A stretch of 43,424 nt of DNA from Candidatus Aminicenantota bacterium (GTDB taxonomy: Bacteria > Acidobacteriota > Aminicenantia > S016-38): NCBI GenBank assembly GCA_026991555.1, contig JALXBI010000095.1, positions 1-43,424 of the forward strand, read 5' to 3'. Under the pieces are notes generated by a model. It saw only the letters and a list, made by a program, of their open reading frames with translations, did no database searches and had not been told where the DNA came from. The position numbers and the translations under genes were made by a program. Shown piece by piece: positions 6,451-43,278 of the stretch (position 1 is its first letter; every line of letters starts with the position of its first letter).

Positions 6451-6490
6451 CTCAGGGGGATTATAACACGGGAATGTTAAAATTAGGGGG
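6451..6490. promoter_or_regulatory. 40-bp divergent promoter region: minus-strand TGTTATAAT (-10 at 6460-6465) and plus-strand TGTTAAAAT (-10 at 6478-6483)
   Basis: Extended -10 elements facing both ways, 9 nt and 7 nt from the respective start codons. Confidence 0.6.
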
Positions 6491-7507
6491 ATGAAAAGAG
6501 TGGTAGTAGGACTCAGCGGTGGCGTTGATTCCTCGGTGGCAGCCCTTCTCCTGAAAAGGCAGGGATTTGAGGTTATAGGGGTCAGTTTAAAGCTTTACAG
6601 GGAGGAGAGCGGGGCTGCGGAAAGGGTGGCCCGTTTTCTTGAAATACCCTTAAGGGTGCTGGACCTCAGGAGGGAGTTCAGGGAAAAAATAATGGATTAT
6701 TTTGCCCGGGAATACAGGAGGGGAAGAACTCCAAATCCCTGTGCCCTTTGTAATTCTTACATAAAATTTCGTTACTTAGAGAAGGTCCGAAGGGAGGAGA
6801 AGGCGGAGTTTATAGCCACTGGACACTACGCCAGAATAGTGGAGAAAGGGAGGAAGTTTTACCTGGCGCCGGCTAAGGACAGGGGAAAATCCCAGGAGTA
6901 TTTTCTCAGCCTTCTTCCAGAGGACATTTTAGAAAAGACCCTGTTTCCCTTGGGGAACCTGACCAAGGAGGAGGTGAGGAAATTGGCAGGGAACATAGCA
7001 GCAAAAAGGGAAAGCCAGGATATTTGCTTTGTTCGGGAAAGGAATTATCACAAATTTTTAGAGAAAGAATACGGTTTTTTGCCGAAAAAGGGAGATATAA
7101 TCACAACTTGGCGGAAGAAAATAGGACAGCACAACGGGTTCTACAAATTCACTGTTGGACAACGAAGGGGAATAGGAGTTTCCTCCACCCAATTTCCCGG
7201 AGGGGCGAAGGGTCCACTGTATGTGGTGAAAATTCTCCCGGAGGAAAACGCTGTGGTCGTGGGAGAAAAAGAGCAGGCCTACAGGTCGGAAATAAAGGTG
7301 GAATTGAAGCTCTGGAAGGGAACAGGGGATGGAAACTACCGGGTAAGAATCAGATACAGACATCCCGGAGCAGAGGCGAAGGTGAAAATTGAAGGCAATA
7401 TTGCAACAGTTAATTTCCTCCTTCCCCAGTTCGCCCCTGCTCCAGGACAGTTAGCGGTTTTTTACGACGAGGAAGAACTTGTGGTAGGCGCAGGGTTCAT
7501 TTTCTAA
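6491..7507 (+). CDS. mnmA: tRNA-specific 2-thiouridylase MnmA
   Basis: PP-loop GLSGGVDSSVAALLL; RTPNPCALCNSYIKF; ATGHYARI; SQEYFLSLL; ESQDICFV; KFTVGQRRGIG. Confidence 0.92.
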   Translation: MKRVVVGLSGGVDSSVAALLLKRQGFEVIGVSLKLYREESGAAERVARFLEIPLRVLDLRREFREKIMDYFAREYRRGRTPNPCALCNSYIKFRYLEKVRREEKAEFIATGHYARIVEKGRKFYLAPAKDRGKSQEYFLSLLPEDILEKTLFPLGNLTKEEVRKLAGNIAAKRESQDICFVRERNYHKFLEKEYGFLPKKGDIITTWRKKIGQHNGFYKFTVGQRRGIGVSSTQFPGGAKGPLYVVKILPEENAVVVGEKEQAYRSEIKVELKLWKGTGDGNYRVRIRYRHPGAEAKVKIEGNIATVNFLLPQFAPAPGQLAVFYDEEELVVGAGFIF

Positions 7508-9134
7508 TTCTCCTCACCACACGCTTCTCCTTAGGGACAGCGCCTATATGCCTATGGGTTACGCTTTTCCTTCCGTAATGGACAAAGCCATGTATTCTCT
7601 TGGAGGTTATAAGGGCTGATGCCCGAGAGGCAGTCTTTGTGGAGAGCCGCCACTTACATACACGATTGTTCCCCCAATCCACTGCATAAACATTTCCGTC
7701 CTCGTCAATAGCCAAACCTCCAGTGCCGTTCAATTCTCCATCGCCGGTTCCGTGCCCTGCAAAGGTGAGGACAAATTTCCCATCAGGCAGAAACTTGTAA
7801 ATCTTATCAGTGCCCCACGCTCCATAGCCCTGTGGGGACCCCACATAAACATGACCCATTCTGTCTGCGGCTATTGCAAAGGGAAAGGGAACATTTTTGG
7901 AAAATTCTCCCTTTTTACTGCCAGAAGAAGAATAGATGACTATTTTTCCACTTTGTCTTAAGGTTACATACACATTCCCGTTGTTGCCAACAGCAGCCCA
8001 TGTGGGTTTTCCGCTTATATTCCACTCCGCTATTTCATTTCCATGGGAATCCAGTTTTAAGAGTTTATTCGCATCCGGAAGGGGCATGTAAATATTGAGG
8101 TCATCGTCCATGTCAAATCCATAAATAAGGTATGGAATGGCCTTTTTCCACTTCACATTGAAAGAAGCAGAAAAGGCTATGAGGTATGAAAACGCCCCCC
8201 AGTTTAGAGGGTCTCCTCCCACATAAAAGGTTTTGTTCTTCTTAACATAAAGGAGAGTGTAAGGATGATAGGGAATTGAGAAGCTTGTCATAAATCCTCC
8301 GGAGGCGTTGAATTTCTCTATCCTTGCATTTACATAATCCGCCACATAGACTTTTCCTTCGCTGTCTATGGTAACATCAGACGGCTCATCGAATTTTCCA
8401 TTGGTTTTGCCATATCCACCGAAGCAGAGGTCAAATTCATATTTGTAAGGAGCAAGTTTAGCCTCTATCGTATATTCCTGACCCGCAGCCAAATTCATCC
8501 TTTTGCTCCATTCCCCATAAAGATCCCTCTTCACTTTTATCTCATGTTCCCCGGCAGAAACCTCAATTGTGCATGGGGTTTCCTCTTTTTCCTCACCGTC
8601 CACATAAACCGTCCCTTCCGCAGGCGAAGAACTTATTTTCAAGGTAGCTTTCTGCTCCTCCTGTATCCCTCCGCCTTCCCCTCCTTTGCTCAAAAGAAAA
8701 TACGCAGCTCCTCCTGCCACCACAGCTCCTCCCAGCAGGTAAGGCCATATTTTGTGGTGGCGTTTGGAGACAACAGGTTGAACCCCTGAGGAAGAAGAAA
8801 CAGGCTTTGCCTGGGACGCAGGAGCTGGGTTAGACGAAGGAGCCTGTATAATCTTCTCTATTTCTATCCTCACAAGGTTGGATTGGACATAACCCACAGC
8901 ACCATTCTGGCTCCTGACTTTAAGCCACATACCCAGGTCTTTCACCACATCCAGCTTTTCATCTGGCTGGGCTATGTAAACCACTGAGGCTCCAGGTGAA
9001 GGCGAGGAGAGAATTTTCAAAACTTTCAGCGCCACCGCATATTTCTTTTCCACTCCTCCTAAAACATTAAACCCGCCTAAAAACACAAACAGAATTAGGA
9101 TAAGGGAAAGGGAAATTCCCCTTTTACTGTTCAT
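7497..9134 (-). CDS. Secreted SH3-like / PEGA / NHL beta-propeller protein
   Basis: N-terminal signal; SH3_3-like GMWLKVRSQNGAVGYVQSNLV; PEGA-like TLKISSSPAEGTVYVDGEEKEETPCTIEVSAGEHEIKV; NHL-like repeats (GKFDEPSDVTIDSEGKVYVADYVNARIEKF; GLAIDEDGNVYAVDWGNNRVCKW). Confidence 0.78.
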   Translation of the reverse strand: MNSKRGISLSLILILFVFLGGFNVLGGVEKKYAVALKVLKILSSPSPGASVVYIAQPDEKLDVVKDLGMWLKVRSQNGAVGYVQSNLVRIEIEKIIQAPSSNPAPASQAKPVSSSSGVQPVVSKRHHKIWPYLLGGAVVAGGAAYFLLSKGGEGGGIQEEQKATLKISSSPAEGTVYVDGEEKEETPCTIEVSAGEHEIKVKRDLYGEWSKRMNLAAGQEYTIEAKLAPYKYEFDLCFGGYGKTNGKFDEPSDVTIDSEGKVYVADYVNARIEKFNASGGFMTSFSIPYHPYTLLYVKKNKTFYVGGDPLNWGAFSYLIAFSASFNVKWKKAIPYLIYGFDMDDDLNIYMPLPDANKLLKLDSHGNEIAEWNISGKPTWAAVGNNGNVYVTLRQSGKIVIYSSSGSKKGEFSKNVPFPFAIAADRMGHVYVGSPQGYGAWGTDKIYKFLPDGKFVLTFAGHGTGDGELNGTGGLAIDEDGNVYAVDWGNNRVCKWRLSTKTASRASALITSKRIHGFVHYGRKSVTHRHIGAVPKEKRVVRRIRK

Positions 9135-9254
9135 GCTTCACCTCCTCCGTTTTTCTAAATTTCATTTTAATATCCCTTTCTTAAAATTTCAAAAAAATTT
9201 TTCGAAGATTTCCCCCATTTCCCATGCTGATTCAAGCATTATTTCAAGAATTTT

Positions 9255-10139
9255 TCATTTTATAAGAGTTAACAATCTTTTTATCTTCTCGTATCCTGCT
9301 CTCTTAATAGGGGTCCCCTTAAATTCACCCTCAAACTCCTCCTTTGAAGGCAACGCATCAAGGGAAGGCGGAACTCTGGGGAGAAAGTCCTTAAGTCCGG
9401 TCTTAACCGCTTTCCTGTTCCATGGGCAGACTTCCTGGCATATATCGCAGCCGAAAATCCATCCCATGTTCCTTTCCCTGTATATTTCCGGGATTTCCCC
9501 TTTATGCTCCACGGTTATGTAAGAAAGACAAAGGCGAGCGTCAAGGAAATAGGGCTTTAAAGCCCCGGTGGGACACGCTTCTATGCAACGGTTGCAGGTC
9601 CCGCAGTAATTTTCTCTGAAGGGCTCATCCGGGGGAAGTTCCAAGGAAATGAAAATCTCCCCCAAGAAGACCCAGGAGCCGTATTGGCGGGTTATAAGCA
9701 TGGTGTTTTTTCCTATCCAGCCAAGGCCTGCTTTACGGGCAATCTCCCTCTCAAGCACCGGAGCGGAATCCACGAAGAACCTCCCCTCCACCCCGGGAAA
9801 TTCCTTCCTGATGAAGCCGAAGAGTCTCCTCATCATCTTCTTCATGACCCTGTGGTAATCCCTGCCCAGGGCATATCGGGAAATCTTCGCCCGTCGGTAA
9901 TTCACCTCTCCCGGATAATAATTGACCGCTAAGGATATGATGGTTTTAACCGGGGGAAATATTTCCTTGGGATTAAGCCTGAGGTGGATATTCCTCCTCA
10001 TGTAGGCCATGCCCGCTTCTGCCCCCCGGGAAAGCCAGTTCAGGAGGAAATCCCCCTTAATTTTCTCAGGGGTGGTGAAACCTATTTTGGAAAAACCCAG
10101 CTCTAAGGCTTTATTCCTTATCCTTTCCTTTTTTTCCAA
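9255..10139 (-). CDS. queG: Epoxyqueuosine reductase QueG
   Basis: [55 protein letters not shown]. The first codon in the track is TTG. Confidence 0.92.
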
Positions 10140-11079
10140 GGCGGTAAAGTCTGACCATGGCCCTCTTCCATGTGTTAAGTTTCGTGTTGGGACATCCCCC
10201 TATTATATCACCGGGGGCCACCTTCCTTAAGACGCAGGCCTTGGCTGCAATCATGGCCCTGTCCCCCACTTCCACATTATCCCTTATCCCGGCCATTCCC
10301 CCGCAAATCACCCCCTTCCCTATCTTAGCGCTTCCTCCTATGGCTATCATGCCGGCGAACATGCTGTCTTCCCCGATCTTAGTTCCATGGGCAATGAGAC
10401 ACAGATTCCCTATTTTTACCCTGTTTCCTATCCTGGTGGTTCCCAGGGCAGACCTATCTATTACTGTATTGGCCCCTATTTCCACATCGTCTCCTATAAC
10501 AACCCTACCCACCTGGGGAATTTTCTCCCCGGCTTCAAAACCAAATCCGTCGCAGCCTATAACCACCCCTGGATGTATAATGCACCTTTCCCCTATTTCC
10601 GTCCCTTCCCTTATAACCACGTTGGAGTAAATTCTGGTTCCAGAGCCTATTTTCACATCGTGGTAAACCACCACCCCGGCGTCTATTTTAACCCCATCTC
10701 CTAAAACCACATTTTTGCCGATTTTCACGAAGTCACCAATGTAAACATCCCTGCCAATTTTCGCCGTGGGATCCACCGTGGCGTTGGGAGAAATGCCTTT
10801 TTCGCCGGGCTCCTCTGGATGGAAAATTTTTATCAATTTTATAAGGGTGGCCCTTGGGTTTTCGGATATTATGAGGTTTTTCCCGGGTATAACCGTATCG
10901 GGACCAACCAGAAAGGCGGAAGCCTTTGAGGAAAGGGCGAGTTTTTCGTATTTTTTCCTGTAAAAGGGGGCAATCTCCCCTTCCACGGCGTCCTCTAAGG
11001 AGGAGACCCCCTTTATTTCAAGCTCGCCATCTCCCCTGAGTTCAGCCTCCAGTATATCTGCTATTTCCTTAAGTTTCAT
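10111..11079 (-). CDS. lpxD: UDP-3-O-acylglucosamine N-acyltransferase LpxD
   Basis: [32 protein letters not shown]-terminal domain plus hexapeptide repeats ([39 protein letters not shown]). Start shifted from 11115 to ATG 11079 by family N-terminus. Confidence 0.9.
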
Positions 11080-11902: not shown

Positions 11903-11925
11903 GGATTCAGTCCCCCCGGACCTTT

Positions 11926-12246: not shown

Positions 12247-12258
12247 GTTAAACCTCCT

Positions 12259-12987
12259 TTAGTGTTCTTCTGAGACCGCCCCGTAAAGGTAAACGGCGGT
12301 CAACATGGCAAAAATATAAGCCTGCAGGCCACCTGTTATAATGGCCAGTGCCATTAAAGGGACTGGCAACAGGGGAGCAAAAAGGCCCGCAAGCACCACA
12401 ATTAAAGTTTCCTCAGCGCTTATATTCCCGAAAAGACGAATGGAAAGGGAAAGAGGCCTGGAAAGATGGCTTATGAACTCTATGGGGGCCATAATGGGAG
12501 CGATAAATATGTATTCTCCGGTAAATTGTTTTATGTAAGCCAGTTTATGCTTTCTTATGCCCTGAAGGTGGTAGTAAAAGAAAACAAATATGGCCATTCC
12601 CGCGGGAACATTTATGTTCATGGTAGGGGCTGAAAGCCCTGGAAAAAGTCCGAAATAATTCATAGTTATTATAAAAAGGAAGAGGCTCCCCACTATTGGG
12701 ATAAATCTTCTTCCCTCCTCCCCTATTATGTCCCTGTTCAGGGAATCAAAGAAAAGGAAAACCTGCTCAAAGAAGGCCTGTTTTCTATCAGGGTAAAATT
12801 TCGGTTTTCCCGAAAGAACCCCGAAGACCACGATGACCGTTATTGAGGCTAAAATTGCCAGCACCACATGCTGGGGAATGGGTTCATGGTGATTAAGGTG
12901 AATTCCGAAGTAGGAGAATATTTTCACAACCGCAGGACCAAGGAGCCGGTTTATTTCTCTAACTATCCATAGTGTCTTCTCGTGCAT
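12259..12987 (-). CDS. atpB: F0F1 ATP synthase subunit a
   Basis: FSHLSRPLSLSIRLFGNISAEETLIVVLAGL with the essential Arg; located directly upstream of atpE. Confidence 0.93.
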   Translation of the reverse strand: MHEKTLWIVREINRLLGPAVVKIFSYFGIHLNHHEPIPQHVVLAILASITVIVVFGVLSGKPKFYPDRKQAFFEQVFLFFDSLNRDIIGEEGRRFIPIVGSLFLFIITMNYFGLFPGLSAPTMNINVPAGMAIFVFFYYHLQGIRKHKLAYIKQFTGEYIFIAPIMAPIEFISHLSRPLSLSIRLFGNISAEETLIVVLAGLFAPLLPVPLMALAIITGGLQAYIFAMLTAVYLYGAVSEEH

Positions 12988-13556: not shown

Positions 13557-13840
13557 TCAAAGAAATCCTCAAAATCCGAACCCTCCCGCCGGTCAAGAAT
13601 CCCGAATTCGTCCCTCCTCCTTTCAATAGCCCGGAAGAAGAATTTTTCGTCGGGATAATGTCTAATATAATTTCCCTCTGTGTCACTGTAAACAAGTTCA
13701 AAATAATCCTCCCCGATCCTGCAAAAAACCGACATGGAGGGAAATTGATCCAGGTCCCCTATTTCTTCAATAACCTCTGCCCTGTCCTTCAGGGCATCTA
13801 AGGATCCCCAATCGTAAACTTCTATTTCCTGTATTCTCAT
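13553..13840 (-). CDS. Acidic small protein of unknown function heading the ATP synthase F0 cluster
   Basis: 95 aa MRIQEIEVYDWGSLDALKDRAEV...; overlaps the AtpZ-like gene by 4 nt; promoter immediately upstream. Confidence 0.65.
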   Translation of the reverse strand: MRIQEIEVYDWGSLDALKDRAEVIEEIGDLDQFPSMSVFCRIGEDYFELVYSDTEGNYIRHYPDEKFFFRAIERRRDEFGILDRREGSDFEDFFE

Positions 13841-13849
13841 TCCCAGAAC

Positions 13850-13878
13850 AAGTTAGAGCAAAATTCAGAGGATGTCAA
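13850..13878 (-). promoter_or_regulatory. Predicted promoter TTGACA-N17-TAACTT for the atp F0 cluster
   Basis: -35 TTGACA is the reverse complement of 13873-13878, -10 TAACTT of 13850-13855; spacer exactly 17. Confidence 0.6.
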
Positions 13879-13883
13879 TACCA

Positions 13884-16322: not shown

Positions 16323-16327
16323 CCTGG

Positions 16328-18370: not shown

Positions 18371-18380
18371 GGTTTCCCCC

Positions 18381-18971: not shown

Positions 18972-19005
18972 CTCAACCTCCTTAAAGATTTTTATTTCAA
19001 ATCTT

Positions 19006-22154: not shown

Positions 22155-22183
22155 AGTTTAAACTCAAAAATTTAAAATGTCAA
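22155..22183 (-). promoter_or_regulatory. Predicted promoter TTGACA-N17-TAAACT
   Basis: -35 is the reverse complement of 22178-22183 and overlaps the stop codon of the upstream gene; -10 is 22155-22160. Confidence 0.55.
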
Positions 22184-22803
22184 TACTCCTCAACCACAAA
22201 ATTTTCAAGATGGGATGTTTGATTCAGAAGGTAAAGGGTAAATCCTCGCTCTTCGTTAAATTTTAAAATGGAATAGGAAGCGGTATCCACATGAATTTTC
22301 CAGAAGAAGGGCTCCCCTATATCCAGAATCCCGGCGATTAACGGTTTTAAAACAGCCCGGTGACTGACCACTGCAAAATCCTCTTTAACCTCCCCTAAAA
22401 TCCTCTTCAGGGTTTTAACTGCCCTTTCCCTTACATCCAGCACGCTTTCTGCCCCGGGAAGGCGCAGCTTCTCCGGTTCCGTTATCCATAATTTAAACTC
22501 CTGTGGATATTTTTCCCTTATCTCCTCTTTCAGCTTTCCTTCCCATGGGCCGAGATTTATGTTATTGAACCCCTCCTCCACTATCACCGGAGCCGAAATC
22601 TTCTTAGAAAGAATCTCTGCAGTTTCCTTGGCCCGGCTAAGGGGCCCTGTATAAATTCTCTTTATTCCCGCATTTTTTAGAGCCTCAGCTAAGGCCTCAG
22701 CCTGCCTCCTGCCGTTTTCGTTCAGGGGAAAATCAGCCCTTCCCCTGAAGTAGCCTTCCCTGTTTCCCTTAGTTTCTCCGTGCCTGATGAGATATATCTT
22801 CAT
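22180..22803 (-). CDS. Histidine phosphatase (phosphoglycerate mutase-like) family protein
   Basis: IYLIRHGETKGNREGYFRGRADFPLNENGRRQAEALAEAL; IYTGPLSRAKETAE; VVSHRAVLKPLIAGIL. Confidence 0.9.
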   Translation of the reverse strand: MKIYLIRHGETKGNREGYFRGRADFPLNENGRRQAEALAEALKNAGIKRIYTGPLSRAKETAEILSKKISAPVIVEEGFNNINLGPWEGKLKEEIREKYPQEFKLWITEPEKLRLPGAESVLDVRERAVKTLKRILGEVKEDFAVVSHRAVLKPLIAGILDIGEPFFWKIHVDTASYSILKFNEERGFTLYLLNQTSHLENFVVEEY

Positions 22804-22863: not shown

Positions 22864-24066
22864 ATGTTTGCTTCTATAGAGGATGCCCTGGAAGATATAA
22901 GGCAGGGCAAAATGGTTATTGTCGTGGACAGTGAGGACAGGGAGAACGAGGGTGACTTGGTAATGGCCGCAGAAAAGGTCACCCCTCAGGCTATAAATTT
23001 CATGGCCAGCAAGGCCAAGGGACTCATATGTGTATCCATTACCAAGGAGAGGGCAGAAGAGCTGGAACTTCCTCCCATGGTGGTGGACAACACGGCTCCT
23101 TATAAAACAGCCTTTACCATTTCCGTGGATGCGGTGGAGGGAACCACAACAGGAATTTCCGCCTACGACAGGGCAATAACGGTGAAAAAACTGGCTGACC
23201 CCAAGGCAAAGGCCAAGGATTTCGCCAGGCCAGGGCACATATTTCCCATAATAGCCCGGAAGGGAGGGGTTCTGGAAAGAACAGGCCACACCGAGGCTTC
23301 CTTAGACCTTGCAAGGCTTGCAGGGCTTTATCCCGCCGGGGTAATGTGCGAGATAATGAACGAGGACGGAACCATGGCCCGCCTCCCTCAACTTGAGGAA
23401 TTCGCAAAAAAATACGGGCTGAAGATTGTAAAAATAGAGGACCTGGTGAGGTACAGGATGGCCAGGGAATCCTTAGTGAAAGAGGTAGCCAAGGCCGACC
23501 TACCCACGAAATACGGCCACTTTACCATTCACCTCTTCAAGGATATAATCCACGGGCACGAATATGTTGCCTTAGTCAAGGGGGAAATAAAGCCCGACGA
23601 GCCCGTGCTGGTAAGGGCCCATTCCCAGTGCCTTACTGGAGACACCTTTGGCTCTTTAAGATGCGACTGCGGACAGCAACTTCACCGTTCCATGGAAATG
23701 ATAGAGAAGGAAGGAAAGGGGGTAATACTTTACATTCTTGACCACGAGGGAAGAGGAATAGGCCTTGAAAATAAAATAAAGGCCTATGCCCTTCAGGATC
23801 AGGGCCTTGACACGGTGGAGGCCAACAAGAAACTGGGATTTAAACCTGACGAAAGGGATTACGGAATGGGGGCCCAGGTTTTAAGGGCCTTGGGGGTAAG
23901 GAAGATGAGGCTCCTTACCAACAACATGAGAAAATTCGTTGCCTTAGCAGGGTATGGGTTGGAAATAGTGGAGAGGGTTCCCATAGAAATACCCCCTAAC
24001 CAGGTCAATAAGGAATACCTGAAAACCAAGAAGGAAAAATTAGGCCACGACCTTCACATGGTATAA
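22864..24066 (+). CDS. ribBA: Bifunctional 3,4-dihydroxy-2-butanone-4-phosphate synthase / GTP cyclohydrolase II
   Basis: [95 protein letters not shown] 22854-22858; -10 TATAAT 22834-22839. Confidence 0.97.
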
Positions 24067-24067
24067 T
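24059..24067 (+). promoter_or_regulatory. Extended -10 TGGTATAAT for rnpB, overlapping the 3' end of ribBA
   Basis: TATAAT 24062-24067 contains the ribBA TAA stop (24064-24066); 7 nt precede the predicted RNase P RNA 5' end at 24075. Confidence 0.7.
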
Positions 24068-24074: not shown

Positions 24075-24411
24075 GGGAGCGGGCAGGTCACCGCTCGCCT
24101 TAAGGCGGGAGGAAAGTCCGAACTCCACAGGGCAGGGCGGTCCCTAACGGGGACCGGGCGCAAGCCCAGGGAAAGTGCCACAGAAAATAGACCGCCCCGC
24201 CCTTCCAAAGGGCGGGGTAAGGGTGAAAAGGTGGGGTAAGAGCCCACCGCTCCGATGGCGACATCGGGGGCACGGTAAACCCCGCCCGGAGCAATGCCAA
24301 AAGGGGTGGCTGGCCCGGCCTTAACCCCTGGTAGGCAGCTTGAGGGAAGGGGCAACCCTTCTCCCAGACAAATGGTGGTCCAAGACAGAATTCGGCTTAT
24401 AGCCCGCTCCC
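24075..24411 (+). ncRNA. rnpB: RNase P RNA (bacterial type A)
   Basis: GGGAGCGGGC/GCCCGCTCCC closing helix; GAGGAAAGTCCGAACTCC; AAGGGTGAAAAGGTGGGGTAAGAGCCCACCG; GGTAAACCCC; CCTGGTAGGCAG; CCAAGACAGAATTCGGCTTATAG. Confidence 0.97.
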
Positions 24412-24427
24412 CAAAAAGTCAAAAAAC

Positions 24428-26199: not shown

Positions 26200-27530
26200 C
26201 AGAAAGGAAGGGAGAACTTGAAATTCTCGGGGATGAAGGCTTTAAAATGAGGGTCGTATTGGTAACGGAAGTTCTTCCGGCTTAGGGCATCCTCTAAGGC
26301 CTGTTTTAGAATTTCTATTTCCCCCGCGGTGTTATAAAAGCTCAAACTGGTTCTTATAGCTCCCAGGCCAGGAAGTTTTCCCTCCATCAGATTTTTCTTT
26401 ACCCTTTCCGTTTCCTCTCCGGAAACTCCCATGAGTTTTTTCACATAGGGCTGGGCACAGAAGCAACCGGTTCTGACTCCTATAGCATATTCAAAGGAAA
26501 GAACCGAAGAAATCAAATAGGGTGAAACTTCCTTTGTGATAAAGGATATAACCGGAAAATCCCCGGCTCTTCTTTCCCCTCCTAAAATTTCAATTTTGTC
26601 AAAGGAGGAGAGCACCCGATAAAGTTCCTGATGAAGTTCTTCCTCCCTTCTCTCCAAGTTCTCCATCCCCCATTCCTCAAAGGTCCTCATGGCCTCGGCC
26701 AGGGCCACGGCCCCCAGTATGACAGGGGTGCCTGCCTCCTCCCTTTCCGGAAGCTCTGCCCATATAACCTCGTCCAGGGACACGAACTTCACCGTTCCTC
26801 CACCCACGGATTCAGGAATTCCATCCCTGAAAAATTCCGCCCTTGCCACCAAGGCACCGGAACCGAAGGGAGCGTAAAACTTGTGGGCAGAAAAAGAAAG
26901 GAAGTCTATCCCCCGGGAAACATGAACTCTCCTGTGGGGAACCAGTTGAGCCCCGTCCACTGAGAATAGGGCACCGTAGCGATGAGCAATCTCCCCTATC
27001 TCGTAAATTGGATTGGGAAAACCCGTGACATTGGAGGCTCCAGAGACGCTGACAAGTTTTATCCTGCCTCCCTCCTTTTTGAGGGTATCCTCTATGCGGT
27101 TCAGGTCAAGCCTGCCGTGGGAGTCCACTGGAACCACCACGGTATCGTAATAGTTAAGCCACGGCAGGAGGTTTGAATGGTGTTCCATCTCTGTGGTAAG
27201 AACCTTCCCATCTCCTATGAATTCTTTCAGTCTGCGGGCCAGCTTGTTTATGGCTTCCGTGGTGTTTTTGGTGAAGATTACCGTGTGGCTTTCAGGAACA
27301 TCAAGGAATTCCCTGACCTTTTCCCTGGCTTCCTCAAAGAGCTCTGTTGATACGAAGGACTTGTATCCTATGCCCCGCTCCACATTAGAATAATAGGGCA
27401 GAACCTGATTCAGTTTCTCTTTAACCCTCCTCAGGGCAGGGGTGGATGCCGCATTATCAAAGAAGATATAAGTCCTTTCCCCTGATAAAACCCTAACTTT
27501 GGTCTTTTCTCCTACAACTTCTGGTCTCAT
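26199..27530 (-). CDS. Class V aminotransferase / cysteine desulfurase-like (SufS/Csd family)
   Basis: IFFDNAASTPALRRVKEKL; TEMEHHSNLLPW; SVDGAQLVPHRRVHVSRGIDFLSFSAHKFYAPFGSGAL (PLP Lys); RTGCFCAQPYV (Cys). Confidence 0.85.
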   Translation of the reverse strand: MRPEVVGEKTKVRVLSGERTYIFFDNAASTPALRRVKEKLNQVLPYYSNVERGIGYKSFVSTELFEEAREKVREFLDVPESHTVIFTKNTTEAINKLARRLKEFIGDGKVLTTEMEHHSNLLPWLNYYDTVVVPVDSHGRLDLNRIEDTLKKEGGRIKLVSVSGASNVTGFPNPIYEIGEIAHRYGALFSVDGAQLVPHRRVHVSRGIDFLSFSAHKFYAPFGSGALVARAEFFRDGIPESVGGGTVKFVSLDEVIWAELPEREEAGTPVILGAVALAEAMRTFEEWGMENLERREEELHQELYRVLSSFDKIEILGGERRAGDFPVISFITKEVSPYLISSVLSFEYAIGVRTGCFCAQPYVKKLMGVSGEETERVKKNLMEGKLPGLGAIRTSLSFYNTAGEIEILKQALEDALSRKNFRYQYDPHFKAFIPENFKFSLPF

Positions 27531-27537: not shown

Positions 27538-27543
27538 ATTATA
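27538..27543 (-). promoter_or_regulatory. -10 TATAAT 7 nt upstream of the ATG of the cysteine desulfurase-like gene
   Basis: Reverse complement of ATTATA at 27538-27543; spacer 27531-27537; possible -35 TTGTTT 16 nt upstream. Confidence 0.6.
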
Positions 27544-32152: not shown

Positions 32153-32157
32153 TCAAA

Positions 32158-34299: not shown

Positions 34300-34300
34300 A

Positions 34301-35554
34301 CTACCTCCTTAATCTATAGCCCCTTATTCTCAATTCCTCTTTAATTCTATCCAGAAATTTCCCGCTCATGCCCGGTAAGGATTCAAGCTTCTTTTCCGGA
34401 AGTTCCTGTAGCTTCTTCCAGGTGAGAATTCCCATCCTTTTAAGAGCAAGGGCAAGGGGCTTGGGAAACTCGGCAAAGGGAAGGCTCTCGTCGGTTTCCT
34501 TAAGAACCTCCTCCCTCCTTTCGCTTTCGGTTTTCAGGGAAATTTTCCAATGGGTAAGTCTGGAAGCCAGCCTTATGTTAGTGCCCTTTTTTCCCACCGC
34601 CACCGAATAATTTTCGTCAGGAACTATGACTTCGGCAATTTTCCTCCCCATATCTACAATCTTAACTTCGCTGACTTTTGCGGGACTCAGGGCGTTGGCT
34701 ATGAACTTCTCAGGATCCTCATCCCACAGCACTATGTCTATTCTCTCTCCTGAAAGTTCCTTGGTAACGGCCAGAACCCTGTTTCCCTTCATGCCTATAC
34801 ACGAGCCCAGGGCATCTACAGTGGGGTCCTCTGCGTATACGGCTATTTTTGACCTTACTCCGGGTTCCCTGACGATGCCCTTTATTTTTATTTTTCCCTC
34901 AGCAAGCTCAGGAATCTCCCTTTCCAGAAGTTTCACAACCAATTCTGGTCTCGTCCTCGAAAGTATGAGCTGCACCGGCTTAGCGTATCTGTAAACCCTC
35001 AGCAGCAGGGCCTTTATTTCCCTTCCTGTTCTGTAGGCTTCCGAGGGGATCTGCTCCCTTTTTGGAAGAAGAGCCTCATCTTTTCCTATGAAAAGGTAAA
35101 CATCCCCATCGCTGATGCGGTGAACCCTTGCGGTAACCACCTGCCCTTCCAGTTCCCTGTATTTGTTGAAAACCCTGTCCTCCTCTGCTTCCCTGACCCT
35201 GGAAAAGAGAACATTTTTGGCAGCCTGGGCTGCTATCCTCCCTAAGGTTTCAGGGGGGAGAGTAAGTTCCACCTCGTCCCCCTCCTTGACATCTTCACTG
35301 AACAGTTTTTTCGCCTTTTCTATATGTATTTCCCTGGTAGGGTCTTTAACCTGCGAAACCACCTTCTTTCGAACCAGAACTTTTACTTCTCCCTTTTCCC
35401 GGTCAAAATAAACCTCTATTTTCTCGCCCTCCCCAAAATATTTTTTTGAGGCTGTCCTTACCGCATCCTCTATGGCCTTTATAAGATAGTCCTTATCTAT
35501 GCCCTTTTCCTTAGAAAGTGCCTCAATAGCCTTTAATATTTTCTCGTTTTCCAT
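34301..35554 (-). CDS. nusA: Transcription termination/antitermination factor NusA
   Basis: KDYLIKAIEDAVRTASKKYFG; S1 domain; PGVRSKIAVYAEDPTVDALGSCIGMKGNRVLAVTKELSGERIDIVLWDEDPEKFIANALSPAKV. Confidence 0.96.
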   Translation of the reverse strand: MENEKILKAIEALSKEKGIDKDYLIKAIEDAVRTASKKYFGEGEKIEVYFDREKGEVKVLVRKKVVSQVKDPTREIHIEKAKKLFSEDVKEGDEVELTLPPETLGRIAAQAAKNVLFSRVREAEEDRVFNKYRELEGQVVTARVHRISDGDVYLFIGKDEALLPKREQIPSEAYRTGREIKALLLRVYRYAKPVQLILSRTRPELVVKLLEREIPELAEGKIKIKGIVREPGVRSKIAVYAEDPTVDALGSCIGMKGNRVLAVTKELSGERIDIVLWDEDPEKFIANALSPAKVSEVKIVDMGRKIAEVIVPDENYSVAVGKKGTNIRLASRLTHWKISLKTESERREEVLKETDESLPFAEFPKPLALALKRMGILTWKKLQELPEKKLESLPGMSGKFLDRIKEELRIRGYRLRR

Positions 35555-35563
35555 AAGAAAAAG

Positions 35564-35572
35564 ATTATATCA
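35564..35572 (-). promoter_or_regulatory. Extended -10 TGATATAAT immediately upstream of nusA
   Basis: TATAAT is the reverse complement of 35564-35569; 9 nt (CTTTTTCTT) to the ATG; no SD. Confidence 0.65.
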
Positions 35573-35607
35573 GAATCTTCGGGGTTTTGGTAAAATAAAG
35601 GAGGAGT

Positions 35608-36099
35608 ATGAATGTGTGGTGCTGCATTATAATTCTGCTTCTTCTGGCAGCCGATGTATACCTATTCGTAATGCTCTTAAGGGCAAAGAGGTTCTTTCAC
35701 CGTCAGATTGAGATATTGAAAATCAGAGGAAGTCTCCCCAGGGAATTCAAGGATAAAAGGGCCTTTCCCAGGGTGCCCGGTTTCTCCGAGAAACCTATTA
35801 TCCTCAGATTTATCTCCCCGCCCTTAAAGGATTATGAGGGGGTGGTGGATAACATCTCCACGGGTGGAGTGGCCATACTTCCTAAATTCCCTGTATCAAG
35901 AATCAGTATTGACCAGGAAGTGGGTCCCATAGAAATCGTTTTCCCTGACGGAACCTATAGGGTTGATTCTGCCAAGGTAGTCAGAATAGCCCACCTCGGA
36001 AACGACAGGATAATCGCCATGAAGTGGCTCAGGATCCCTTACCGAACCAGGGACAGAATTCAGAAATACATTGATGAATACTTCCGCAGCCGATCTTAA
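35608..36099 (+). CDS. Membrane-anchored PilZ-like domain protein
   Basis: N-terminal TM; RxxxR (KRAFPR) and NxSxxG (DNISTGG) motifs of PilZ; SD AAGGAGG. Confidence 0.72.
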   Translation: MNVWCCIIILLLLAADVYLFVMLLRAKRFFHRQIEILKIRGSLPREFKDKRAFPRVPGFSEKPIILRFISPPLKDYEGVVDNISTGGVAILPKFPVSRISIDQEVGPIEIVFPDGTYRVDSAKVVRIAHLGNDRIIAMKWLRIPYRTRDRIQKYIDEYFRSRS

Positions 36100-37144: not shown

Positions 37145-37158
37145 GGCCTCTGGCCAAT

Positions 37159-37166
37159 GTTAAAAT
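37159..37166 (+). promoter_or_regulatory. Extended -10 TGTTAAAAT (starts at 37158/37159) 6 nt before the rtcB ATG
   Basis: TAAAAT 37161-37166 followed by ATTGAT and ATG 37173; no SD. Confidence 0.6.
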
Positions 37167-37172
37167 ATTGAT

Positions 37173-38609
37173 ATGAAGGAAAAACTCAGAAAAATTTCCC
37201 CCTTTAAATGGGAAATACCCAAACACGGTAAGATGAGGGTTCCGGGTATAATCTACGCTTCCGAGGAAATAATGGAAACTGTGGAAGACGGAGCCCTCCA
37301 GCAGGTGGCCAACGCAGCTACCCTTCCAGGAATTGTTAAAGCCTCCATGGCCATGCCCGACATCCATTATGGGTATGGGCTTCCCATAGGAGGAGTAATT
37401 GCCACGGACTGGCACGAGGGAATAGTCTCTCCTGGAGGCGTGGGATTTGACATAAACTGCGGGGTTAGGCTTGTAAGAAGCAATCTTACCCTGAAGGATA
37501 TCCAGGGAAAGAAAGAAGCACTTCTCAATGCCCTTTTCAGGAAAATTCCTACCGGGGTGGGCTCCACAGGAAAATTAAAACTCTCCCATTCGCAGCTCAG
37601 GCAGGTTCTGGCCGAGGGCTCCTACTGGGCTGTGAGAAAGGGATACGGGACGGAAGAGGACCTTCAGGCCACCGAGAGCACTGGCAAGCTCCCCTGGGCA
37701 GACCCTTCCGAAGTTTCCACCAAGGCCTTGGAAAGGGGGAAAGACCAGCTTGGGACCTTAGGCTCTGGAAATCATTTTGCTGAAGTCCAGGTGGTGGACG
37801 AAATTTACGACGAGAAAACCGCCAAGGAATTCGGCCTGGAGCTGGGAATGATTACCCTTATGATTCACACTGGTTCCAGGGGACTTGGCCATCAGGTAGC
37901 CACGGATTTCCTGGTAATAATGGAACGGGCCCTTTCTAAATACGGCATATGGCTCCCGGACAAACAGCTGGCCTGCGCCCCCACCCAATCCAAGGAGGGT
38001 AAAAAATACTTAGGGGCCATGGCCTCGGCGGCCAATTTCGCCTGGGCCAATCGGCAGATTATAATGCACTGGGCCAGGGAAGCCTTCAGTGAAGCCTTGG
38101 GAATGAGCTGCGAGGAGCTGGGACTTGCCCTTATTTACGACCATGCTCATAACATAGTGAAGAAGGAAGAACACAGGGTCAACGGCAGGGAAACGGTGCT
38201 GGCCGTCCACAGGAAGGGAGCCACCCGGGCCTTTCCTCCGGGACACGAGGAACTTCCCCCCCGCTATCGCAAAACAGGTCAGCCGGTTATAATCCCCGGG
38301 GATATGGGAAGGTATTCCTTCCTTCTGGTTGCCACTCCAAGGGCCATGGAGGAAACCTTTGGCTCCTCCTGCCACGGAGCAGGAAGGCTCATGAGCAGAC
38401 ACAAGGCCATTAAGGCTGCCCGGGGAAGGTCCATCGAAAACGAATTGAAGAGGGAAGGGATTCTCGTAAGGTCTGCCAGCAGGAAAACCGTCATGGAGGA
38501 GATGCCCGAGGCCTACAAGGATGTTTCCTTAGTGGTGGAGGCCATAGAAGGGGCCGCTATCTCAAGAAAAGTAGCGAGGATGAGGCCCCTTCTGGTAATT
38601 AAGGGTTAA
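37173..38609 (+). CDS. rtcB: RNA-splicing ligase RtcB
   Basis: MPDIHYGYGLPIGGVIATD; GGVGFDINCGVRLVRSNL; GTLGSGNHFAEVQ; IPGDMGRYSFLL; SSCHGAGR. Confidence 0.97.
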   Translation: MKEKLRKISPFKWEIPKHGKMRVPGIIYASEEIMETVEDGALQQVANAATLPGIVKASMAMPDIHYGYGLPIGGVIATDWHEGIVSPGGVGFDINCGVRLVRSNLTLKDIQGKKEALLNALFRKIPTGVGSTGKLKLSHSQLRQVLAEGSYWAVRKGYGTEEDLQATESTGKLPWADPSEVSTKALERGKDQLGTLGSGNHFAEVQVVDEIYDEKTAKEFGLELGMITLMIHTGSRGLGHQVATDFLVIMERALSKYGIWLPDKQLACAPTQSKEGKKYLGAMASAANFAWANRQIIMHWAREAFSEALGMSCEELGLALIYDHAHNIVKKEEHRVNGRETVLAVHRKGATRAFPPGHEELPPRYRKTGQPVIIPGDMGRYSFLLVATPRAMEETFGSSCHGAGRLMSRHKAIKAARGRSIENELKREGILVRSASRKTVMEEMPEAYKDVSLVVEAIEGAAISRKVARMRPLLVIKG

Positions 38610-39367: not shown

Positions 39368-39385
39368 GTCACCTCCTTCCTTTTT

Positions 39386-39394
39386 ATTTTAACA
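39386..39394 (-). promoter_or_regulatory. Extended -10 TGTTAAAAT upstream of the 38606-39367 gene
   Basis: ATTTTAACA on + strand; followed by AAAAAGGAAGGAGGTGAC-ATG. Confidence 0.5.
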
Positions 39395-39396
39395 GA

Positions 39397-40152
39397 TTAA
39401 ATTTCAAGAAGCATTCCGTCGGAAGCAGCCTTGATCTCTAAACCAAGGGTTCGGGAAAGCTCCTGGGCCATCTCCCAGGGCTTTGCCCTGAGCATGTTCA
39501 TCCCGAAATGAGTCATAATTAAAAGCCTCGGTTTAATTCTAATGGCCAGCTCCTTCACATTTTCCAGGCAAAGATGTTTTATCCTCGGATTACAATCCTT
39601 AAGAACAGTATTCACCACTAAATAGGAACAGTCGGAATAGCATTCGGGAAGCTCCGGAAAGAAAGCCGTATCAACTATAAAACACAACTTCCCCTTTTCA
39701 TGGGAAATTTTTACTCCGTAGGTTTCAACTCCGTGAACATGGGGACAGGAAATCTCAAGTTCCATGCCCTCCAAGGAGTATTTTTCCCGGGCCTTCATTC
39801 TTATTATTTCCACTGCTCCCATGAGATAACGGAAGACCACCCTATCCTCCCCCTCCACTGCCTGAGCAGGAGCCAGAAGAAAACCCCTTTTTCTCTTGAC
39901 TCCCTCTGTCATGGCATCAAGGAGAGCATTAACATCCCCGCTGTGGTCCAAGTGAATGTGGGTAAGAATAACCCCATCAAGGGAAGAAGGGGGAATTCTG
40001 GGCCTTGACTTGGCCATTCTCACCAGGGTTCCAGGGCCAGGGTCCAGGACGATTTTCTTCCCATTAACTTCAATATAAGTCCCTGCTGAAGAGCGAAGCT
40101 GGGTAGCCATAACATATCTGGCCCCTGCGGTTCCAAGAAATTTAACCCTCAT
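39397..40152 (-). CDS. MBL-fold metallo-hydrolase
   Basis: VRMAKSRPRIPPSSLDGVILTHIHLDHSGDVNALLDAM (HxHxDH); MTHFGMN. Confidence 0.88.
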   Translation of the reverse strand: MRVKFLGTAGARYVMATQLRSSAGTYIEVNGKKIVLDPGPGTLVRMAKSRPRIPPSSLDGVILTHIHLDHSGDVNALLDAMTEGVKRKRGFLLAPAQAVEGEDRVVFRYLMGAVEIIRMKAREKYSLEGMELEISCPHVHGVETYGVKISHEKGKLCFIVDTAFFPELPECYSDCSYLVVNTVLKDCNPRIKHLCLENVKELAIRIKPRLLIMTHFGMNMLRAKPWEMAQELSRTLGLEIKAASDGMLLEI

Positions 40153-41054
40153 TTGGGAACATCCGCCTCTATAAAGATTTTCTTTATCGAAGGGAATTTT
40201 TCCCTTATTTCCCTTTCTGCCATGTCAATGGCGGAACTTACCTTTTCCATAGGGGTGGTGGGAGGAAAAAGAACCTTCCCTGCCAGGAGGATGTTGTCCT
40301 CCCCTAAAATGAGGGACTTCAGATAAACCACCCTCTCCACCCCCTCCTGCCCTGAGAGAATTCTCTCTACCTCCCTCATCACCTCCTCAGGAGCTGACTC
40401 CCCCACTATGAGAGAATGCATCTCCGAACCCAAGAAAAAGGCCACGCCTATAAGGAGAAAACCTATAAGGACGGAACCCAACCCGTCAAAAAGGGCAAGT
40501 CCGGTAAAATGGGAAAGGAGCACCGAGAAGAGGGCAATGGTTAAACCCAGAAGGGCTGCCATGTCCTCTAAGTAAACCACCACCACTTCAACCCTGGGGG
40601 TCTTTCTCAGGAAGGAAAAAACCGAAAGAGCTCCCTTTTCCCTGTGAAGTTCACTGCTGGCTTTGAGAAAGGAAATCCCCTCCGCTGTCATGGCAAATAG
40701 GAGAAGGCCCACAGCCAGAAAGGGATTTTTTATCTGATGGGGATGGATGACCTTCCTCACCCCTTCCCAGAGGGAATATAATCCTCCTAAGGCGAAAAGC
40801 TGAACCGCCACGAGAAAGGCCCAGAAAAATCTCTCGCTGGCATAACCAAAGGGATGGGTTCGGTCCTCGGGCTTTCTGCTCCTTGCCATTCCCACCAGGA
40901 GGAGAACCTGATTTCCCGTGTCCGCTGTGGAATGTATGGCCTCCGAGAGCATGGAGGAAGAACCTGTAAGAAAATAAACCACAAATTTGGAAAGGGCTAT
41001 GGCCAGGTTGGCTCCCAGGGCGAAAAGCACTACCTTCTTGCTACCGTGCGCCAT
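40149..41054 (-). CDS. Cation diffusion facilitator (CDF) family transporter
   Basis: GSSSMLSEAIHSTADTGNQVLLLVGM; HPFGYASERFFWAFLVAV; VVVVYLEDMAALLGLTIALF; C-terminal cytoplasmic domain. Confidence 0.92.
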   Translation of the reverse strand: MAHGSKKVVLFALGANLAIALSKFVVYFLTGSSSMLSEAIHSTADTGNQVLLLVGMARSRKPEDRTHPFGYASERFFWAFLVAVQLFALGGLYSLWEGVRKVIHPHQIKNPFLAVGLLLFAMTAEGISFLKASSELHREKGALSVFSFLRKTPRVEVVVVYLEDMAALLGLTIALFSVLLSHFTGLALFDGLGSVLIGFLLIGVAFFLGSEMHSLIVGESAPEEVMREVERILSGQEGVERVVYLKSLILGEDNILLAGKVLFPPTTPMEKVSSAIDMAEREIREKFPSIKKIFIEADVPK

Positions 41055-41069
41055 GGATTAATTATACCT

Positions 41070-41837
41070 TCATTCCCAGTCATGAGGATGAAAATGCCTG
41101 TGGATTACCCTCCCATGCCGGTGCCGATGAATGTGCAACAAATTGGCCCTAAGGAGAAGCTCCCTGTCCGATAGAAGCTCCTTAAAATCCCCTTCGTATA
41201 TTTTCCTGTGGTCCTCGGAAAGGAGAATCGCCCTCTCTCCCAATTCCGGAGCCAGGCTCAGGTTCTGGGTGGCCACCACTGTGGTGGCAGGATACTCCCA
41301 GAGGAGGTCCAGAATCTCTCCGGTGCTCCTGGGATCAAGGTTAGAAAGGGGCTCGTCAAGGAGGAGCACCTCAGGCTCTAAAGCGAGTATAGAGGCCAGA
41401 GCCACCTTCTTCTTTTCGCCGATGCTGAGCTCCGCTGGAGACCTTTCGAAAAGATTGGAGATTCCCAGCTTCTCCCCCCATTTTTCAACCCTTTCGTCGA
41501 TGTCTTTAATCCTCATCTGTCTCAGACCAAAGGAAATCTCGTCCCTTACCGTGGGATTAAAGAGCATCACTTCCACATCCTGAAAAAGGAGAACCACGGA
41601 CCTTCTGAATTCCCCTTCAAAATTCTTAATCTTCCCCGGCCTTAATTCCTTTCCCTTCCAGAAAACCCTGCCTTTTTTCGGAAAAATAAGCCCGTCCAGA
41701 ATCTTAAGAAGGGTGGATTTTCCGCACCCATTACCTCCAAGGAGAACAACCCTATCCCCTCTTTCCAAATTTAGATTTATTCCTCTAAGGACATCCTCCT
41801 CTGCGTAGGAAAACCACAGGTTCTCAACCCTGAACAT
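41070..41837 (-). CDS. cbiO: Co/Ni ECF transporter ATPase subunit (CbiO-like) with His-rich tail
   Basis: GGNGCGKSTLLKILDGLI; LSIGEKKKVALASILALEPEVLLLDEPLSNLD; tail HIHRHRHGRVIHRHFHPHDWE. Confidence 0.9.
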   Translation of the reverse strand: MFRVENLWFSYAEEDVLRGINLNLERGDRVVLLGGNGCGKSTLLKILDGLIFPKKGRVFWKGKELRPGKIKNFEGEFRRSVVLLFQDVEVMLFNPTVRDEISFGLRQMRIKDIDERVEKWGEKLGISNLFERSPAELSIGEKKKVALASILALEPEVLLLDEPLSNLDPRSTGEILDLLWEYPATTVVATQNLSLAPELGERAILLSEDHRKIYEGDFKELLSDRELLLRANLLHIHRHRHGRVIHRHFHPHDWE

Positions 41838-42354
41838 AAAACCCCCTTGAACGAAGGGCCTGCTTTATTTCCTCTCCCCTTCTTTCCGAAACCCTCAGGA
41901 AGTATCCAAAAACGGCCCCGGCATAGGGAAAAAATGCCTTGCCAAGACGTCTGCTTACTGTCCGGGAACGGAGGGCCTGCTGAAAGGAAAAATAGGTTTT
42001 TTTGAAGGAGGAATACTGGGCATAGGCTAAGGAAAATACCGCCTGGAGGGTTGGAGAAAAGGAAAAAATCTTCAGTGGATGAATCAGGGAAAAGAACGCT
42101 ATGGCCGAAAGACTCATGGCAAGAACCCTCAGATTGAAAAGAAGCAACCAGTGCCACGGGGAAACCCCTTCCGGATGAAAGAAAATGTAAGGGAAGGAGA
42201 TTAAGAAGAGAAAAAGAAGAAGGCTGAGGATTCTTCTAAGCTTTAAAAAGGGAAGGGAAAGAAGAATTACCGGAAGGAAAACATACCAATTGTGAGAAAG
42301 GGAAAGAAAAAAAAGAAAACCAAGAAACAGAAAAAATGCTAAGGTTTCCTTCAT
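41824..42354 (-). CDS. cbiQ: Co/Ni ECF transporter transmembrane subunit (CbiQ-like)
   Basis: Multi-TM; C-terminal RTVSRRLGKAFFPYAGAVFGYFLRVSERRGEEIKQALRSRGF. Start placed at MKETLAFFLF (about 42354). Confidence 0.8.
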   Translation of the reverse strand: MKETLAFFLFLGFLFFLSLSHNWYVFLPVILLSLPFLKLRRILSLLLFLFLISFPYIFFHPEGVSPWHWLLLFNLRVLAMSLSAIAFFSLIHPLKIFSFSPTLQAVFSLAYAQYSSFKKTYFSFQQALRSRTVSRRLGKAFFPYAGAVFGYFLRVSERRGEEIKQALRSRGFYVQG

Positions 42355-42629
42355 TTTCTGAGCCTTTCGATGAGGACAAAAATCAGAATTATCAAACCTG
42401 CTCCCACAATGGCTGAAAGCAAATACGAGGGAAGTTCTCCAAGAAACTTCAAGGAATAATCGCTGACAGGAGCCTTCCATAATCCTGATAGTTTTTTGAC
42501 TCCGTAGGGAACAAAACCCAGCATCTCCCTAAGTTCCCCCTCTGCCCACTCCCCCCAGGCTCCTCCTCCCAGAAGGCCCAGAGGCACCAGAAGCAGGAAA
42601 ACAAGAAGCAGTTTAACTTCCCTTTTCAT
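42351..42629 (-). CDS. PDGLE/CbiN-like small membrane component
   Basis: Two-TM small protein between CbiM and CbiQ: WAEGELREMLGFVPYGVKKLSGLWKAPVSDYS. Start at MKREVKL (about 42629). Confidence 0.75.
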   Translation of the reverse strand: MKREVKLLLVFLLLVPLGLLGGGAWGEWAEGELREMLGFVPYGVKKLSGLWKAPVSDYSLKFLGELPSYLLSAIVGAGLIILIFVLIERLRK

Positions 42630-43242
42630 CCTTCTTAATATAGGAAAGCACCGCAAGGTTTAAAATCCCTTCCAAGGGAGCAAAAAACAGCAGGGTTGGA
42701 ACGAGCATGGCGGGGACGGTTACTTTTAAGCCATAAGGGAAATAAAGGGGAAGAGCGCCGTGGCGAAAAATAAGGGCCTGAAGCCCAAGAATAAGGGAAG
42801 CGGTAAGGGAGGAGAAAACTAAGGATACATATCCGCTCAGGAAATAGGAAAATTTACCCCATTTTCTGGTTATCTGCCAGGCCCAATATCCTACGAAGGC
42901 AGGGATAATGCCCATGACAATCAGATTTGCCCCATAGGTGGTTATGCCTCCATCGCCAAAAATAATGGCCTGGAGGGCAAGAACCACAGATAGGGAAGCC
43001 ACCGCCTTCCACGGACCGAATAATATGGCCAGAAGAGAGGTTCCCAGGGCGTGTCCGGATGTCCCTCCTGGGATGGGAATGTTTATCATCATCACCACGA
43101 AGGCAAGGGCTGAAAGCACTCCCAACCTGGCAAGATGTTCCTCGTCGAGAACCTTCTTAAAAGAATAGTAAACAAAGGGGATGGCCACCGCGTATGAGGC
43201 CGCACAGGTTTCGGGAGAAAGGAAACCATCAGGTATATGCAT
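42613..43242 (-). CDS. cbiM: Co/Ni ECF transporter substrate-binding subunit CbiM
   Basis: MHIPDGFLSPETCAASYAVAIPFVYYSFKKV; NIPIPGGTSGHALGTSLLAILFGPWKAV; QAIIFGDGGITTYGANLIVMG. Start set to the MHIPDGFL Met at 43242. Confidence 0.93.
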   Translation of the reverse strand: MHIPDGFLSPETCAASYAVAIPFVYYSFKKVLDEEHLARLGVLSALAFVVMMINIPIPGGTSGHALGTSLLAILFGPWKAVASLSVVLALQAIIFGDGGITTYGANLIVMGIIPAFVGYWAWQITRKWGKFSYFLSGYVSLVFSSLTASLILGLQALIFRHGALPLYFPYGLKVTVPAMLVPTLLFFAPLEGILNLAVLSYIKKDEKGS

Positions 43243-43249
43243 CTGCAAA

Positions 43250-43278
43250 ATTTTAAAAGGAGCTGGCGCTACTGTCAA
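43250..43278 (-). promoter_or_regulatory. Predicted promoter TTGACA-N17-TAAAAT for the cbiMNQO operon
   Basis: -35 is the reverse complement of 43273-43278, -10 of 43250-43255; 7 nt (TTTGCAG) to the ATG. Confidence 0.7.

Follow-up and report, generated by a model that had tools for sequence, protein, structure and literature searches.

How is translation started at genes whose promoters seem to end where their coding sequences begin? The window, a stretch of 43,424 nt from a Candidatus Aminicenantes MAG, raises this question at seven genes, for which the original prediction proposed transcription as leaderless mRNAs. We consider it probable (roughly 0.87), as a prediction made at the level of the DNA, that this genome has leaderless transcription units with extended -10 promoters at the start codon.

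The seven predicted -10 hexamers are all present at the spacings proposed for them, and none of the seven genes carries a Shine-Dalgarno (SD) motif. The methyltransferase/NifX-domain gene (mTase, ATG at 6450) has a TG-extended TATAAT, TGTTATAAT, at 6460..6465 on the minus strand, leaving a gap of 9 nt, and the divergent mnmA (ATG at 6491) has TAAAAT (TGTTAAAAT) at 6478..6483 on the plus strand, with a gap of 7. These two promoters share one 40-bp intergenic region, where scanning for a simple -35/-10 consensus gave no promoter because their -35 boxes are weak. The 95-aa gene heading the ATP synthase cluster (ATG at 13840; atpB of this cluster at 12259-12987) has TAACTT at 13850..13855 (minus strand, gap 9), preceded with a 17-nt spacer by a -35 TTGACA at 13873..13878 on the same strand. 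Upstream of the SufS-like cysteine desulfurase-family gene (ATG at 27530) lies TATAAT at 27538..27543 (minus strand, gap 7), upstream of nusA (ATG at 35554) TATAAT (TGATATAAT) at 35564..35569 (minus strand, gap 9), and upstream of rtcB (ATG at 37173) TAAAAT (TGTTAAAAT) at 37161..37166 (plus strand, gap 6). Finally, cbiM (ATG at 43242) has TAAAAT at 43250..43255 (minus strand, gap 7) and, across a 17-nt spacer, TTGACA at 43273..43278 (minus strand), the latter also found in the relative G001.

Such AT-rich hexamers could be due to chance, or be a compositional by-product: the TANNNT pattern is loose, the DNA between genes is rich in A and T, and shuffling puts the probability for a single gene at about 6% for gap 6-7 and 14% for gap 5-9. 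We scanned a 511-kb sample of the host genome for TANNNT boxes, with gene starts called blind to upstream signals, divergent genes taken as operon-first, gaps counted in nucleotides to the start codon, and 1000 shuffles preserving local dinucleotides as the control. This genome-wide comparison with shuffled upstream sequence is the one by which the original prediction could have fallen, and the hypothesis survived it. A box at gap 6-7 precedes 24 of 60 divergent-first genes, when about 3.5 are expected, and none of the 1000 shuffles matches this count; leaving the window out gives 22/54 (shuffle mean 3.2, maximum 9 in 1000). The peak consists of 16 genes at gap 6 and 8 at gap 7, with about 2 per position elsewhere and flanks without excess. 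Among the first genes, as expected of TA-led units, a -10 element some 10-12 nt before the start codon exceeds the shuffled expectation. The boxes are concentrated in operon-first genes, since only 15 of 257 close co-directional genes have one at this gap. With the identical pipeline, Escherichia coli, the negative control, gave no peak (1/46 at gap 6-7), and the Deinococcus deserti plasmid P1, the positive control, gave 7/48 with the peak positioned as in the host. The host boxes have the consensus TATAAT/TAAAAT with a TRTGn extension, i.e., they are extended -10 elements, and TRTGn played no part in their selection. The 6-9 nt range of the original prediction is present, but the typical gap is 6-7 and the three gap-9 cases (mTase, nusA, and the atp head) sit at the tail.

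Relatives also speak against composition (below, f1-f10 are families of the class, f1 being that of the host, and G numbers denote relatives' genomes). No peak appears in low- and medium-GC samples from sister families (G012, 32%; G016, 42%), and the exact pattern TATAAT-N6-7-ATG is 2.0 times as frequent as its N20-21 control in f1 and about 1.0 times or less in f2, f3, f6, and f7. Chance or composition is refuted for the genome-wide pattern, and as an overall reading it is hardly credible. For single genes it is possible: because TANNNT is loose, chance should account for some 3-4 of the 24 boxed first genes. We are less sure of the 13840 gene (with its weak TAACTT), the cysteine desulfurase, and cbiM as single leaderless cases.

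Could the start codons be mis-assigned instead? The true starts would then lie downstream, and the boxes would be ordinary -10 elements of SD-led genes with short leaders. Every MAG has some miscalled starts, and divergent regions have -10 boxes near genes in any case. Still, the calls ignored upstream signals, yet the box peaks at one spacing. It precedes 51 of 154 real first starts, compared with 8 of 99 intergenic decoy ATGs and just 15 of 608 ATGs in the first 60 nt of genes. Moreover, N-termini are conserved: the relatives' protein alignments start at most two residues from the ATG for rtcB, nusA, mnmA, mTase, cbiM, and the atp head. We regard mis-assignment as very unlikely.

The use of SD motifs differs between boxed and unboxed genes. 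In the sampled host genome, SD-type motifs occur before 165 of 257 operon-internal genes, in agreement with the predicted general presence of GGAGG-type SDs inside operons, vs 20 of 58 divergent-first genes. Outside the window, 26 of 28 boxed divergent-first genes lack an SD and 16 of 26 unboxed ones have one (p=2.8e-5); pooled over three f1 genomes, SDs are present in 3/68 boxed vs 49/86 unboxed genes (p=6e-13). We rejected the possibility of a Bacteroidetes-type, SD-independent genome, given these 165 internal genes and the anti-SD CACCTCC kept at the 16S 3' end of the f1 member G004 and of three other class members (the host assembly is without 16S rRNA).

Where would the RNA start? The window offers an indirect calibration in rnpB, the class A RNase P RNA gene (24075..24415, plus strand; Rfam RF00010, 309 bits). 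Its -10 TATAAT lies at 24062..24067 on the same strand, and the sequence reads TATAAT-7-GGGAGCGGG, with the Rfam 5' end at 24075. This bears out the 7-nt distance used in the original prediction, and in five f1 genomes the RNA starts 6-8 nt after the box. By analogy, mRNA 5' ends would be expected 6-8 nt after their boxes. A variant is that the RNAs have short leaders, starting 3-8 nt before the ATG, with SD-independent initiation that is unstructured or assisted by ribosomal protein S1. S1 is encoded, and the boxes at gap 8-9 (mTase, nusA, atp head) leave 1-3 nt if the start is 7 nt after the box; a gap of 9 would thus allow a leader of 1-3 nt. However, the modal gap of 6-7 equals the box-to-5'-end distance of rnpB. 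A matrix trained without the window recovers the peak in both G002 and G004 and yields few boxes at gaps of 10-14 nt, a depletion expected if 3-8 nt leaders were disfavoured. We find short leaders a very unlikely account of the pattern.

The leaderless interpretation is supported by the sharp peak at a single spacing, the exclusion of SDs, the correct outcome of both controls, and the conservation of box and spacing in relatives. The promoters would be of the housekeeping sigma-70/RpoD type, mostly with an extended -10 (TRTGnTATAAT) and a weak -35. RNA polymerase would start 6-9 nt past the -10 box, which is at the start codon or within about 3 nt of it; we infer the exact mRNA 5' ends. An RNA starting there would leave the mRNA no room for an SD. 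Ribosomes would have to start on a 5'-terminal AUG, probably as 70S particles, as for other leaderless mRNAs. SD-led starts would be used alongside, with operon-internal genes mostly having GGAGG-type SDs. Among divergent operon-first genes, the leaderless share would lie between roughly one third, with chance subtracted, and one half by raw count; for all genes, the net share would be about 5-9%. These counts support leaderless initiation as one of two putative start modes, each serving about half of the divergent heads.

This mixture is visible in the window, where the pattern is not window-wide as originally suggested. Among six divergent heads, three are of the leaderless type (6450, 6491, and 35554) and three are SD-led: 22180..22803 (minus strand, SD GGGAGGG), the ribBA-type gene at 22864..24066 (plus strand, SD GGAGG), and 35608..36099 (plus strand, SD AAGGAGGAG). 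Nor are all seven genes shown to head operons. This is clear only for mTase, mnmA, and nusA; the 13840 gene trails the co-directional mutS by 43 nt, the 27530 gene a co-directional CDP-alcohol phosphatidyltransferase gene by 46 nt, and rtcB a co-directional GAF-HD gene by 28 nt, while cbiM lies at the contig edge. Transcripts starting farther upstream may also cover the genes at 13840, 27530, and 37173.

How stable are these start signals? Box and spacing are retained in relatives for rtcB (5/5 f1 genomes, gap 6), nusA (TGATATAAT at gap 8-9 in 6/6 f1 genomes with upstream sequence), the atp head (6/6 f1 genomes, with a TTGAC-type -35, a TAAYTT/TACCTT -10, and gap 9-10), mnmA (3/4; TAGAAT at gap 7 in G002 and G003), and mTase (3/3). 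The rtcB, nusA, mnmA, and atp-head boxes persist while the surrounding sequence diverges, and in the mTase orthologs of G002 and G003 a TAAACT stands at gap 6 although the rest of the sequence has diverged. Outside f1, rtcB has AAAGGAGG and GAGGAG SDs in the outgroups G007 and G008, respectively, the atp head has an SD-like AAGAGG in G008, and the nusA box of other families lies farther upstream. Other boxes come and go: that of cbiM is retained in G001 (gap 7) and G002 (gap 9), and no comparable box was found in G003, G004, or G005; the cysteine desulfurase has a gap 6-7 box in G001, G004, and G005, and no TANNNT box was found in G002 or G003. The 35608 gene is a putative switch between start modes, SD-led here vs boxed in G002, where TAAAAT precedes the ortholog at gap 8 and an SD is absent.

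Samples of 40-200 kb per family had suggested that the trait is confined to f1. This was overturned by a whole-genome count of TATAAT-N6-7-ATG vs TATAAT-N20-21-ATG over 80 genomes, which revealed an excess in f5 (ratio 2.3 in genus g6 and 1.4 elsewhere). In the f5 genome G014, four of five such sites are exact gene starts. The excess is weak in f8 and f4, and none is significant in f2, f3, f6, f7, f9, and f10. A reversed-pattern control was set aside as unsuitable, because TATAAT, unlike its reverse, is a promoter word. Judged by these counts, the putative trait is patchy within the class: strong in f1, weaker in f5, and absent in most others. Loss of S1 was rejected as its cause: S1 is present in f1 as in other families (the 83%-complete G005 has a weak match only). 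We give even odds to the proposal that in whole families, the small-genome f1 and to a lesser degree f5, leaderless initiation replaced SD-led initiation at many housekeeping operon heads (nusA, rtcB, the atp cluster), presumably in that direction. If true, the class would offer a natural experiment on how and why start modes swap gene by gene, some of the swaps separating species within a single genus (35608, cbiM). Since the heads rtcB, nusA, atp, cbiM, and 35608 appear leaderless in some close relatives and SD-led in others, start-mode evolution can be tested for each gene.

Leaderless and SD-led initiation are also mixed within one genome in Mycobacterium, where leaderless transcripts are backed by TSS and ribosome-profiling data; those of the host are predicted from the DNA. 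The predicted mechanism and its spacing match leaderless transcription known from Deinococcus, Actinobacteria, and other Acidobacteria. Experiments in Deinococcus radiodurans established TANNNT 6-7 bp before ORFs as the -10 element of leaderless genes, and Deinococcus-Thermus resembles the host in this spacing (~6-7 bp), in the lack of an SD, and in coexisting genes with GGAG-type SDs (PMC12340547). However, D. radiodurans favours TACACT, whereas the host has TATAAT/TAAAAT with TRTGn, and about 30% of all its genes are leaderless, compared with the 5-9% net estimated for the host (PMC12340547). Mycobacterium smegmatis uses GTG as an efficient leaderless start (PMC9031893), whereas ATG is the start codon of 28 of the 31 boxed first genes of the host. 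In the parts of Zheng et al. 2011 (PMC3160421) available to us, all three Acidobacteria genomes have 9.7-19.4% leaderless genes, their TA-led genes share the signal class of the host, and no Aminicenantes genome is named. Our literature search found no earlier description of leaderless starts in Aminicenantes. The mechanism is known and the lineage, as far as this search shows, is new for it, adding an uncultured lineage to the map of leaderless bacteria. Gene finders that assume SDs misplace starts in such genomes, and the annotation of MAGs of this lineage therefore needs a leaderless model.

The proposal that operon-first genes are transcribed as leaderless mRNAs was tested in the host genome, an assembly of 125 contigs (1.9 Mb), one of which is the window. 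We sampled 511 kb of it by stretches and called genes without regard to upstream signals, using just codon usage and the type of start codon. Among 60 first genes of divergent pairs, a -10 hexamer (TANNNT, the box) ended 6 nt before the start codon in 16 and 7 nt before it in 8, with a mean of about 2 at other positions. The original prediction had called for comparing box placement with shuffled upstream sequence, and the excess was found: when the 40 nt before the start were shuffled with dinucleotides preserved, counts at gaps 6-7 averaged 3.5 and never attained 24. Leaving the window out, 22 of 54 genes were boxed at these gaps, against 3.2 expected by shuffle. Only 15 of 257 close co-directional genes had a box, which was also rare at decoy ATGs (8/99 intergenic, 15/608 coding) relative to real first starts (51/154). 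At boxed sites the hexamer is preceded by T-R-T-G-n, a feature that played no part in their selection, and the -35 is only weak and T-rich. The same script recovered the known peak of Deinococcus deserti P1 (7/48 versus 0.6 expected) and showed no peak in 200 kb of Escherichia coli K-12 (1/46 at gap 6-7).

Shine-Dalgarno (SD) motifs and boxes are mutually exclusive. Outside the window, an SD was present in 2 of 28 boxed and 16 of 26 unboxed divergent-first genes (Fisher, 2.8e-5), and in three pooled genomes of the host's family, f1 (genera g1 and g2), in 3/68 and 49/86 (6e-13). With the window excluded, a matrix derived from the host genome recovered the same box peak in two relatives, G002 and G004. 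Boxes at gap 10-14 were scarce in the first genes of these three genomes (one site each), hence leaders too short for an SD are rare; leaders in f1 would be either absent or of SD-accommodating length. Four members of the class, including one from f1, have an unaltered anti-SD CCTCC, and ribosomal protein S1 is present, so SD initiation is kept alongside. Three divergent pairs lie only 17-22 bp apart with both genes boxed at gap 5-7 (L017:5357-5373, L044:10572-10592, L029:17240-17261); their boxes adjoin or overlap, and each -35 region falls within the opposite gene.

In the window, the seven promoters and the spacing of rnpB (TATAAT, 7 nt, then RNA) match their earlier description, and the identities of mnmA, nusA, rtcB-like, cbiM and the SufS-like gene are borne out. 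The rnpB box lies 6-8 nt upstream of the RNA in five f1 genomes, the 5' end being set by a structure model. By this calibration, transcription from a box at gap 6-7 would begin on the A of the start codon, and from one at gap 9 either there or as much as about 3 nt before it. We give a probability of about 0.9 that the RNAs of rtcB (37173) and mnmA (6491) start no more than 3 nt from the ATG. In our judgement, the same is very likely for nusA (35554), likely for mTase (6450), the head of the ATP cluster (13840) and the cysteine desulfurase gene (27530), and fairly likely for cbiM (43242). The earlier description of the pattern as window-wide goes too far, since three of six divergent heads are SD-led (22803, 22864, 35608). 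Operon-head status was also stated too strongly for 13840, 27530 and 37173, which have a co-directional gene 43, 46 and 28 nt upstream, so that in these cases it is inferred from the promoter itself. The 13840 gene (95 aa) is positioned between mutS and the atpB cluster. The mTase (5668-6450, minus strand) is an uncommon fusion of a methyltransferase domain (residues 4-138) and a Nitro_FeMo-Co (NifX/NifB-type) domain (172-256). For the rtcB-like protein (37173-38609, plus strand), the best match is to the extein portion of the NCBIfam "intein-containing RtcB" model; no intein is present.

Six more f1 genomes, and numerous families elsewhere in the class, were available for comparison; window nusA is 96%, 84% and 68% identical to that of three MAGs (two Candidatus Aminicenantes, one Acidobacteria bacterium). 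Several boxes are conserved within f1: rtcB has TANNNT at gap 6 in 5/5 relatives despite differing adjacent bases, nusA has TGATATAAT at gap 8-9 in 6/6 genomes, and the ATP cluster head has a TTGAC-type -35 with TAAYTT/TACCTT at gap 9-10 in 6/6. Gap 7 of mnmA is retained in 3/4, and mTase is boxed in all three genomes where it was found (gaps 9, 6, 6). Less stable are the boxes of cbiM (3/6) and the cysteine desulfurase gene (4/6). Outside f1, rtcB appears to be led by AAAGGAGG or GAGGAG and the ATP cluster head by AAGAGG, and nusA appears to have a longer leader, in f2 with AAGGAAGG. Gene 35608, SD-led here, is box-led in G002, so start modes switch between congeneric species.

Across the class the trait is patchy, dense in f1 and thinner in f5. 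First genes were boxed at gap 6-7 in 24/58 cases in the host (one overlapping pair dropped), 9/40 in G002 and 20/62 in G004, versus 3/166 across six other sampled families (p=2e-15); when every gene in the f1 samples is counted, boxes show a net excess of 5-9%. In a whole-genome count over 80 genomes, the ratio of TATAAT-N6-7-ATG to TATAAT-N20-21-ATG was 2.0 for f1 and 3.5 for the host itself. Within f5 it came to 2.3 for genus g6 and 1.4 for the remainder; f8 also gave 1.4 and f4 gave 1.2, and f2, f3, f6, f7 and f10 showed no excess (about 1.0 or below). The mechanism is known. In D. radiodurans, mutation showed that a box at 6-7 bp is the -10 of leaderless genes (PMC12340547), and 70S ribosomes are described as binding leaderless mRNAs at a 5'-terminal AUG (PMC9031893). 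A 2011 survey predicted leaderless genes in 207 of 953 bacterial genomes, with the first T of TANNNT about 12 nt before the start, and lists 9.7-19.4% leaderless genes in 3/3 Acidobacteria genomes (PMC3160421). Our literature search found no paper linking leaderless with Aminicenantes, which makes this a known phenomenon in a new lineage.

Finally, where the contig ends (43287-43367), two imperfect 29-nt repeats with AATTRGGGACAGACCC (GGGTCTGTCCC on the opposite strand) adjoin the cbiM promoter. They possibly represent a dispersed repeat, and this could explain the assembly break there.
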